A stretch of DNA of 64,000 nucleotides, taken from NCBI RefSeq assembly GCF_030866785.1, contig NZ_CP133018.1:930001-994000 (forward strand), written 5' to 3'. This DNA comes from Agromyces protaetiae. Lineage in GTDB: Bacteria > Actinomycetota > Actinomycetes > Actinomycetales > Microbacteriaceae. Under the pieces are notes generated by a model, which worked only from the letters and a program-made list of their open reading frames with translations, was not told where the DNA came from and ran no database searches. Every line of letters starts with the position of its first letter. The stretch's first letter is position 1. A program made the translations under genes and the position numbers. Shown here one piece after another: positions 1 to 8,621 of this stretch.

Positions 1-194
1 GCGCCGACTCGCGTAACTACCCCAATCAGATCACGTAGGCCAACCGGAAGGCGAACGAAGCTTCCCACCTGACCAACGCTGTAAGGTTCACCGGCAACGA
101 AGGCGAGGCCGGTCGAGATTTGGGGAGCAATTTCTGCTGCGATTGACGAGCCATCGACATCTCGAACAGTGCCAAGAAAGGTGGCATCACGCAC
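1..194 (-). CDS. herA: HerA-family ATPase, N-terminal fragment (cut by window edge)
   Basis: Only the first 64 codons are in the window. I read them from the minus strand starting at a GTG (194-192) that follows an AGGGGG ribosome site (201-206) and overlaps the SIR2 stop by 8 bases. The peptide has the pattern of a HAS-barrel: FLGTV at residues 6-10, then GEPYSVGQVGSFVRLP (36-50) and LIGVVTRV. This is the domain that precedes the HerA/FtsK-type motor in HerA hexamers. The overlap with the SIR2 gene implies translational coupling and a shared complex. The Walker motifs would lie outside the window, so the family call rests on the HAS-barrel and the partner gene. A TGATG start at 187-185 in another frame gives no sensible protein. 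Confidence 0.72.
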   Translation of the reverse strand, partial: MRDATFLGTVRDVDGSSIAAEIAPQISTGLAFVAGEPYSVGQVGSFVRLPVGLRDLIGVVTRVG

Positions 195-1383
195 TTTCTG
201 CCCCCTCTTCAAACTGAAGCAGATTCGAGAGGCGTGCAAAATTGCCGATCTCCGAGGGTGCGACTCGTTGGAGATCTTCGGATTGTTGCCAGGGTGCGCG
301 AGTGCCGCCAATGACAGCACCGTCAGGCCCCATCAGCCGTACGTTGGGCGTTCGAGTCGCGATTCGTACCGCTTCTTCGTGCTCGCCGAGGGGCTTGAAC
401 AATAGGGCGAACGCCACAGCGCTTGGGTTTCCTGCAAGCCCTTCGATCAGGATCTCGTTGATGTGTTCGTCGGCAAATGAATACCCCTCGATCAGGAGCA
501 GCGCTCCGTCCTGCCGCAGGTACGAACGCAGCCGGTCCTGCATGGCGAGATAGGGCATGCGGCGGCTTTGGTCGTATTTGAGGTGCGAGGGATGAACGAG
601 ACTCTTGCTTCGGTTTCCCGCGCCTGCGCTTGCGCGAAAGATCCGCGCTCCGTCGGCGCTCCAATTGACGGAACCGTGCATTTTCCATAGCCGAGTCCAG
701 CGCGTGGGCAAACTGTCGTCCTCCATCGTGCGGAGGTCAAGGAACGGTTCATACGCTCCGAGAAATCCATCGAAGTAGGCGACGCGGTGCCGCTCGAGGG
801 ACTGCTCCATGAGGAGGTCGTAGTTGAGCGTGAAAATCTCCAATGGAAACCTGCGGTCGAATGCCCCCGCCCATCGCGAAACTGCATCGAAACCGCCGCC
901 GTCAGCCGGAAGCGCGACTGTCACGATGTCGACGATTTGCTCAACTATGGCGGCTTCAAGCCTTTCGATTTGAATCGCCGTCATGCCCCGAATGGAGTCC
1001 CCGCCTGCAATCAACGCCATCGTGCGCAGTCGGGTCAGCCAATGCTCGACAGTCGGTGTGCTCGTGCCGTCGGCGACAAGAGTGTCTTCGAGCACCGACA
1101 GCGCCTCATGCGGCGTCGCTAGCTGAGTTCGAATTCTTGCCGTAAGTCCCGCGAGGTCTGGAATCAGCTGATTACCCCGCGGATCACTTAGCGAGCAGGA
1201 ACTGCCTGCCCCGAGAAGGAAGGCGAACGGCCTGGCATCGTCGAACAGAGCACGCTCGAGGATTGCGAGCGCGGCGCGAAAGAGGTGACCGGCGGAATCG
1301 GCATCATTGTGGTTGGTGATGCGCGAGCTCGTTGCCGCACTCGGGGCAATCCCTTGACTCTGAAATGGTGCTCCTTCGCGCAT
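187..1383 (-). CDS. SIR2-domain protein of a SIR2-HerA defence pair
   Basis: 398-residue protein with SIR2-fold motifs: the NAD-binding GAGSS at 58-62, TLNYD at 185-189, and the catalytic-type MHGSVNW at 235-241. The C-terminal stretch GYSFADEHIN (303-312) is typical of the SIR2 proteins found in bacterial defence operons rather than protein deacetylases; it lacks the four-cysteine zinc site of classical sirtuins. In SIR2-HerA systems the SIR2 subunit assembles with HerA and depletes NAD on phage infection (family knowledge). The downstream gene on the same strand is HerA-like and overlaps by 8 bases. Base composition and codon use (TTG, CAT, AAT, GAT) are less GC-rich than neighbours, suggesting transfer. 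The ATG at 1383 is the only in-frame ATG upstream of the domain and has no strong ribosome site, so the N-terminal 30 residues are uncertain. Confidence 0.85.
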   Translation of the reverse strand: MREGAPFQSQGIAPSAATSSRITNHNDADSAGHLFRAALAILERALFDDARPFAFLLGAGSSCSLSDPRGNQLIPDLAGLTARIRTQLATPHEALSVLEDTLVADGTSTPTVEHWLTRLRTMALIAGGDSIRGMTAIQIERLEAAIVEQIVDIVTVALPADGGGFDAVSRWAGAFDRRFPLEIFTLNYDLLMEQSLERHRVAYFDGFLGAYEPFLDLRTMEDDSLPTRWTRLWKMHGSVNWSADGARIFRASAGAGNRSKSLVHPSHLKYDQSRRMPYLAMQDRLRSYLRQDGALLLIEGYSFADEHINEILIEGLAGNPSAVAFALLFKPLGEHEEAVRIATRTPNVRLMGPDGAVIGGTRAPWQQSEDLQRVAPSEIGNFARLSNLLQFEEGAESA

Positions 1384-1599: not shown

Positions 1600-4221
<2,622 letters not shown>

Positions 4222-7576: not shown

Positions 7577-7762
7577 TTACGCCGGGTCGTCGGCGGCCGG
7601 GGGCGCGGAGCGCCCCGGTGCGGGCGGGATCAGTCCGTGCTTGCGCAACGCGTGCGCGAACGCGAGCCGGGCGGCCACGTACACGATGCCGAAGACCACG
7701 GCTCCGATGACGGCCCAGTACAGCAGGATGATGAGCAAGTGCCCTCCGGGGAACGCGAACAT
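7577..7762 (-). CDS. 61-residue single-helix membrane protein
   Basis: Short open frame with one strong hydrophobic helix (LLIILLYWAVIGAVVFGIVYVAA, from about residue 9) and a proline- and alanine-rich tail. It has an ATG start and sits 24 bases after the lipoprotein gene on the same strand, so the two may be co-transcribed. No family recognised. Frame choice is supported by the clean amphipathic boundary and lack of a competing frame. Confidence 0.6.
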   Translation of the reverse strand: MFAFPGGHLLIILLYWAVIGAVVFGIVYVAARLAFAHALRKHGLIPPAPGRSAPPAADDPA

Positions 7763-7786
7763 GTGCGCCTTTCGTGGTGTCAGGAG

Positions 7787-8197
7787 CTAGTCGGTCGAGG
7801 CGCCCGCCGGGAGGTGCGGGGTCGACGTGTCCGAGAGGCATGCGAGCCAGACCGCTTCGAACTCCGGGTTCCCGGTGAGGCTCGGGTCACCCGGCGAGAG
7901 CGAGCCGTCGGGGTTGAGCGTGACCGTCCAGCCGTACTCGGCGACGCACGCGCTCATCGCGGCGTGGACGAGCGCGGCATCGGCGCGGGTCCCCTCGCGC
8001 GGGATCTCGGCGGGCTGCACCGAGGCCGACGCATCGGCGTCGGTCCGGATCTCGAGCGTCGCCGTCGAGGACGGCGACGCGTCCGGCTCGCTCGGCGAAC
8101 TGCACGCGGCCAGCGCGAGCCCCAACCCGCCGCTGATCAGCGCGAGGGCCACGGCGCGGCGGATGTCTCGCCCTAGGCACGTTCGACGAGTGTGCAT
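7787..8197 (-). CDS. Small putative lipoprotein
   Basis: 136 residues from the ATG at 8197, which has GTGGGG just upstream; longer in-frame starts exist to 8254. A basic start (HTRRTCLGRDIRR) precedes a hydrophobic helix ending in a lipobox LAAC with the modifiable cysteine at about 32, then a Ser/Pro/Asp-rich linker. The mature domain has two cysteines (SACVAEYGW and VWLACLSD) that could form a disulfide and a central TVTLNPDGSLS turn. It is probably tethered on the outer face of the membrane. Function unknown. Confidence 0.72.
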   Translation of the reverse strand: MHTRRTCLGRDIRRAVALALISGGLGLALAACSSPSEPDASPSSTATLEIRTDADASASVQPAEIPREGTRADAALVHAAMSACVAEYGWTVTLNPDGSLSPGDPSLTGNPEFEAVWLACLSDTSTPHLPAGASTD

Positions 8198-8306
8198 GCC
8201 CCACATCCTGCCCGAGGCATCCGTCATATGAAAGCTCTTGTCCGCTTGCTGCAACGTCGGGGCACCCGCGTTTGACGGACCGCCGGGTTCGTGTTCGGAT
8301 GGCTAG

Positions 8307-8621
8307 ATGGGAAGCGGACTGGCCTGGCTCGTCGTCGGTGCCGGCTTCGTCGCGTCCATGTGGTCGATGCGGATGCTCCTCGACGCCAATCCCGATCGCT
8401 TCATCCCGTACTTCGGCAACCCCGAGCGCCTTCCGCGCTGGTCGCTCGCGCTCCGCGCCATCGGAGCCGGACTGGTGGTGTACGGTGTCGGGACGCTCGC
8501 GGCCGACATCGGCATGTGGAGCGTCGCGATCGTGCTGCTCGCCACGCTCCCGCCAGTGGTCTGGATGCATCGGCACAACCGTCGGCTCGAGCAGGACCAG
8601 CGTCACGAGACATCCGGCTGA
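8307..8621 (+). CDS. 104-residue membrane protein, unknown function
   Basis: Three hydrophobic segments are visible: LAWLVVGAGFVASMWSM, LALRAIGAGLVVYGVGTLAA and WSVAIVLLATLPPVVWM, followed by a charged C-terminus (HRHNRRLEQDQRHETSG). ATG start at 8307. It lies 51 bases ahead of the glycosylase gene on the same strand and could share its transcript. No family recognised. Confidence 0.65.
   Translation: MGSGLAWLVVGAGFVASMWSMRMLLDANPDRFIPYFGNPERLPRWSLALRAIGAGLVVYGVGTLAADIGMWSVAIVLLATLPPVVWMHRHNRRLEQDQRHETSG

Follow-up and report, generated by a model that had tools for sequence, protein, structure and literature searches.

A predicted SIR2-HerA type anti-phage defence operon of Agromyces protaetiae in which a KTSC gene looks like a third part

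SIR2-HerA is already known as a defence system. Passages of PMC12198126 list it among the two-component systems, call its activation unclear, describe an assembly of a Sir2 dodecamer and a HerA hexamer, and state for one species that HerA binding opens the Sir2 nicotinamide adenine dinucleotide (NAD) pocket. A related arrangement, in which HerA and KTSC are combined with an endoDNase that replaces the sirtuin, is given in a passage of PMC9503650 as an unpublished observation. In the current study, we analysed a stretch of 64,000 nucleotides (positions 930001-994000, the window) of the single 4.18 Mb contig of Agromyces protaetiae (GCF_030866785.1, NZ_CP133018.1), together with the sequence to its left, L008, in which a position minus 12000 is the window position. 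The sequences support a predicted SIR2-HerA type anti-phage defence operon at the left edge of the window. We propose that it comprises four genes (SIR2, HerA, KTSC and a SLATT-like gene), the first three forming a core NAD-depleting machine, a reading to which we assign a probability of about 0.8. To the extent that this could be checked, the novel finding is that KTSC is a near-constant third part across this branch of SIR2-HerA, both as a separate gene and fused to HerA, with a variable gene in the slot behind it.

The first gene of the operon (window 187..1383, minus strand, ATG start) encodes a SIR2-domain protein of 398 residues, the predicted NADase effector. The four motifs quoted in an earlier sequence-only reading were located at residues 58 (GAGSS), 185 (TLNYD), 235 (MHGSVNW) and 300 (GYSFADEHIN), and the whole protein holds a single cysteine, so that the zinc-cysteine set is absent, as had been claimed. 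It matches the SIR2 models of PADLOC (best E 5.6e-108), the Pfam family SIR2_2 (E 5.8e-17) and the solved SIR2 chain PDB 8w9l (E 1.7e-78). The HerA gene follows on the same strand and occupies window 1..194 before its frame runs off at position 1. Its GTG start (194-192) lies upstream of the SIR2 stop (189-187), which confirms the proposed overlap of 8 bases between the two frames, and the proposed Shine-Dalgarno-like AGGGGG was found within the SIR2 gene (201..206, minus strand), six bases ahead of the GTG.

The earlier reading would have been refuted if the frame did not continue past position 1 into a HerA-type ATPase, and it does continue into one. The whole gene (L008 10365-12194, contig 928365-930194, minus strand) encodes 609 residues with a Walker A motif, GSTGSGKST, at residue 159 and a Walker B region, LLFVFEEAH, at residue 448, and it matches DUF87 (E 2e-31), HerA_C (E 2.8e-9) and the HerA of PADLOC (E 1.2e-149). 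The 64 codons visible in the window already match PADLOC HerA (E 1.6e-5), and no Pfam family matched these residues at E up to 1. They had been read as a HAS-barrel, the N-terminal domain of HerA ATPases; their place as the N-terminal HerA domain is backed by the alignment of residues 4-603 with the solved HerA of PDB 8wiv (E 9.3e-177), with the limit that no HAS-barrel model scored with either the 64-residue or the full 609-residue query.

The nearest solved SIR2 and the nearest solved HerA share the PDB entries 8wld, 8woc, 8wod and 8wof, a SIR2/HerA complex solved by cryo-electron microscopy. The PADLOC matches and this shared origin of the closest solved relatives uphold the proposed SIR2-HerA type defence pair. 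The solved antiphage complex (8w9l, 8wiv, 8wld, 8wof), whose organism we take to be a Paenibacillus, thus gives the best solved match for both proteins of A. protaetiae. The entries 8j4u, 8su9 and 8uaf, presumably the E. coli Sir2-HerA system, resemble the operon in having SIR2 and HerA with conserved SIR2 pocket motifs, but they are distant from it (SIR2 4.4e-6, HerA 1.6e-28). Both proteins also score well below what the NCBIfam anti-phage equivalogs require (SIR2, NF042942, 43.9 of 500 bits; HerA, NF042944, 241.2 of 850 bits) and therefore belong to a subtype other than the one that these models define.

Beyond the window edge, 37 bases separate the HerA stop (L008 10365) from the GTG start of a KTSC gene (L008 10118-10327, minus strand) of 69 residues, which matches PF13619 (1.5e-21) with a score above the gathering level and has the KTSC fold. 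Its stop is overlapped by 4 bases by the ATG of the SLATT-like gene (L008 9552-10121, minus strand, 189 residues). Based on strand and spacing, we infer that SIR2, HerA, KTSC and the SLATT-like gene are co-transcribed as one operon. The KTSC fold is also the ordered C-terminal domain of HerA in the solved complex, where it is part of a HerA chain of 696 residues, while here a HerA of 609 residues is accompanied by a KTSC gene of its own. No model of PADLOC-DB matched the KTSC protein at E up to 1, and a protein search with it as query returned 8 proteins. Literature searches found KTSC together with HerA in two papers, PMC9503650 and the jumbo-phage paper PMC7824862. They found no paper combining HerA with the KTSC product name, although structure papers may state that the HerA C-terminus is KTSC, and no paper combining 8WLD with SIR2.

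The association of KTSC with HerA extends well beyond A. protaetiae. When genome contigs were scanned with three aligned SIR2 proteins, 139 relatives were confirmed. The best 80 of these, a selection that leans to close relatives, made up 83 loci together with the A. protaetiae locus and two relatives from the family, and 79 of the 83 had a KTSC match at 1e-5. As to the four misses, two loci end within the operon (L024, L070), in one the KTSC-like frame, at 1.4e-4, runs in the opposite direction (L029), and in the last the HerA match breaks off at profile position 560 of 599 (L075). We placed 102 HerA proteins in a tree (LG+G4) after dropping 10 duplicate or near-copy loci and those without either gene or ending inside the operon, with six loci picked for being without KTSC as the outgroup. 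KTSC stands right after HerA in 94 of the 96 ingroup members (82 separate, 12 fused; one other has it on the opposite strand and one, L075, is without) and in 0 of the 6 outgroup members, the branch between the two groups having an SH-aLRT (Shimodaira-Hasegawa-like approximate likelihood ratio test) support of 96. Because of this distribution, this branch of SIR2-HerA looks like a three-part system. HerA and KTSC are fused in at least two places in the tree, one being a beta/gammaproteobacterial group and the other L109, which lies outside that group, and the gap from the HerA stop to the KTSC domain has a median of 12 nucleotides (range -16 to 50; 91 loci, duplicates included). Across 94 loci, the pairwise distances of HerA correlate with those of KTSC (r 0.79) and of SIR2 (r 0.96), none of 999 permutations being as high. 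In L068 (7179-10525) the HerA gene is split into two pieces about 1.15 kb apart, perhaps by an insertion.

Several of these results, and others, weigh against a three-part machine. The six outgroup loci were selected as lacking KTSC and the tree is a quick one with long-branch warnings; the dividing branch itself is independent of that outgroup choice. KTSC tracks HerA less tightly than SIR2 does, a difference that its short length would produce, as would a looser coupling. A terminator-like hairpin lies within the KTSC gene, although such sites numbered 4 in all against 3.4 expected. Nucleic-acid binding by KTSC rests on published predictions, of DNA binding in a passage of PMC9503650 and of RNA binding in passages of PMC7824862, a jumbo-phage paper whose KTSC passage concerns RNA binding, and PMC8541194. 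Finally, all seven distant SIR2-HerA loci examined, namely the viral locus L125 and the plasmid loci L137-L142, are without KTSC. This last result shows KTSC to be dispensable for the principle, and it favours an alternative in which SIR2-HerA alone is the whole system, KTSC and SLATT being mere neighbours and KTSC an independent small RNA-binding protein travelling along. We consider this very improbable, as KTSC follows HerA in nearly every member of a branch that spans many phyla and includes an archaeon. The two are also fused at two or more separate points of the tree, and in the solved complex KTSC forms the C-terminal domain of HerA itself. A passenger origin of KTSC, weighed with the distant SIR2-HerA loci as the contrast, is likewise thought unlikely.

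Similar arrangements were detected in viruses, plasmids and other members of the phylum. Among 15 viral SIR2 loci, HerA was present in 12, and all 12 of those carried KTSC (near-copies included); of the others, L099 is cut short, and two (L111, L112) have distant SIR2 genes with no HerA match. In the phylum, HerA of the A. protaetiae type occurs in 6 of 396 genomes, and in the five besides its own (L114-L117, L119) KTSC lies beside the C-terminal end of HerA, with SIR2 in view in three of them. In the family, the SIR2 gene occurs in 3 of 199 genomes, A. protaetiae included. SIR2 matches were found in 115 plasmid records, and 12 loci were examined among the 60 matches listed. In the five near loci, the annotation places a KTSC protein directly 3' of HerA; they come from two Citrobacter, the archaeon Natrinema zhouii, E. 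coli C5 (L134, plasmid A, NZ_CP010123.1 171133-174429) and Paraburkholderia. Of the seven far ones, L136 is without HerA and the other six are the SIR2-HerA loci without KTSC mentioned above. In the plasmid locus of N. zhouii (L133), the genes after SIR2-HerA-KTSC (7587-8564) are annotated as two pieces of a protein of the ADP-ribosylglycohydrolase family, for which a link to the SIR2 product is possible.

The HerA, KTSC and endoDNase systems mentioned in PMC9503650 share with the operon the coupling of HerA with a KTSC gene, but in the passage concerned the endoDNase replaces the sirtuin, whereas here KTSC goes with the sirtuin. None of 11 viral HerA loci had HerA-KTSC with a nuclease in the place of SIR2, and the four among them without a SIR2 match (L126, L128, L129 and L130) were also without a KTSC match. 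This does not contradict PMC9503650, because the HerA branch concerned may be a different one.

How the core machine might act can be outlined by homology. SIR2 and a HerA hexamer would assemble into one large complex, and KTSC, as a detached C-terminal domain of HerA, would dock as a separate chain at the site that the fused domain occupies in the solved structure. HerA would then engage DNA or another infection signal, its state would reshape SIR2, and SIR2 would cleave NAD+, so that the infected cell halts before phage release; phage defence is the presumed role of the operon in its host. At the HerA end, KTSC would most likely face the nucleic acid or serve as a gate, and the SLATT-like protein, encoded by a lineage-specific fourth gene, may add membrane damage as a second effector, possibly through a pore; we hypothesize both that KTSC acts in signalling and that SLATT acts as a pore. 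An NADase activity of SIR2 is suggested by its pocket residues: N187, Y188, D189 and H236, matched by us to the NAD-pocket residues listed in the relevant part of PMC11263360, each show a conservation of at least 95% across 95 branch members. The SIR2 might instead mainly ADP-ribosylate DNA or protein rather than drain NAD+, since ADP-ribosylation is proposed for HerA-linked sirtuins in a passage of PMC9503650; passages of PMC12198126 and PMC11263360, however, describe Sir2-HerA as having NADase activity. We regard ADP-ribosylation as quite unlikely here, and depletion of NAD+ on infection as the best reading of SIR2 action.

A more specific role for KTSC can also be considered. Fold matches of the KTSC model in BFVD include many phage proteins, among them one named as a PBSX-type portal and one named as structural, and because phages carry KTSC folds of their own, the KTSC of the operon could share a ligand or partner with them. 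It might then be an infection-sensing subunit that reads the same ligand or partner as phage KTSC and switches HerA-SIR2 on, with SLATT turning the SIR2 product into a membrane-level hit; we offer this tentatively and consider it unlikely as a whole.

The position behind KTSC is filled by different genes. In A. protaetiae, the protein encoded there matches SLATT_1 (NF033634) at 6e-10 with 39.2 bits, under the curated cut-off of 41, and PF14015 with 18.8 bits, under the cut-off of 24.7, and is therefore named SLATT-like only. Its predicted model is all-helical, with a mean pLDDT (predicted local distance difference test) of 79 and helices 43-92 and 98-118 at middling confidence, to be compared with the two transmembrane helices expected of a SLATT protein. 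No window of 19 residues reaches a mean Kyte-Doolittle hydropathy of 1.6, 15 relatives were found at 1e-3 (itself counted), and none of the solved structures matched at E up to 1. The gene accompanies the operon in 2 of the 83 loci, those of A. protaetiae and Agromyces fucosus (L015, 64% identity). Because of the sub-cut-off score, the low hydropathy and the two loci only, all of which speak against a part for it in the system, the SLATT-like gene may be a passenger. The idea that SLATT goes with SIR2-HerA in general was rejected, given the same count and its absence from the further viral, plasmid and phylum SIR2-HerA loci. The profile match and the all-helical model are shared with the SLATT effectors of TIR- and nucleotide-linked conflict systems described in parts of PMC9503650 and PMC7159879, the latter of which predicts SLATT to be a nucleotide-responsive pore; the differences are the score just under the cut-off and the location behind SIR2-HerA-KTSC. 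Among 396 genomes of the order, one other has a SLATT relative, in a different context. In L097 (3661-11713, genome G359), a SLATT relative stands among frames that by eye look nucleotidyltransferase-like, HIT-like, DNA methyltransferase-like and SIR2-like, and since these neighbours differ, SLATT appears to move between contexts.

Sixteen further loci, whose sources range from alphaproteobacteria to a Bacillus and a Bacteroidetes record, encode a protein of about 340-347 residues directly after KTSC (for example L036:9293-10330). Two members scanned had no Pfam or PADLOC match, and a search for solved relatives yielded none, its single match being at E 0.4. Six aligned members share invariant D134, E150 and K152 in a GD...ExK pattern, from which we read the protein as putatively PD-(D/E)XK nuclease-like. 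In these loci it accompanies the sirtuin and does not replace it. A KAP-family ATPase was considered as a fourth gene in six loci with fused HerA-KTSC (L072, L074, L076, L086, L077, L078) and set aside; in scans of two of them the ATPase matched QatA of the Qat defence system, so a neighbouring system is more likely, and Qat and SIR2-HerA-KTSC may often sit together.

The operon appears to be part of an inserted block. It is adjoined in the window by a gene that we read from its sequence as a Clp-type AAA+ chaperone (1600-4221, plus strand), which marks the border of the block because its first part is present in all 31 genomes of the genus that were searched. With 1.5 kb in view, 20 clp loci of the genus, from these 31 genomes, were compared, and only that of A. 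protaetiae has the operon beside clp. The guanine plus cytosine (G+C) fraction is 0.57-0.61 over the operon, compared with about 0.70 towards clp and 0.61-0.67 across some 3.5 kb of the other flank. Compared with A. fucosus L015, the clp side has 83% DNA identity, and no similarity was found past the SLATT gene on the other side. The expectation that more defence genes might lie beyond position 1 is borne out by the KTSC and SLATT-like genes and, 1.6 kb from the SLATT end, outside the window, by a Fic-family gene (L008:6814-7962, plus strand; PADLOC SoFic, 4.7e-43), a candidate second defence gene in the same low-G+C stretch. The deviating G+C and the 19 other clp loci without the operon would also fit a decayed or silent operon retained by chance after horizontal transfer. 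That is very improbable, as all four frames are intact and tightly spaced, the SIR2 keeps the family residue at 43 of the 45 positions that reach 95% conservation or more in the branch, and all four genes are retained in A. fucosus, where the proteins are 58-77% identical.

Overall, these results point to a third small gene that is nearly invariant in this branch of SIR2-HerA, is joined to HerA in some loci and matches a domain that is ordered in the solved structure, yet has no matching model in PADLOC-DB. An expression of only SIR2 and HerA from a locus of this kind would omit part of the machine. A conserved third part of one domain, which occurs both split and fused, also makes the question of the trigger directly testable.
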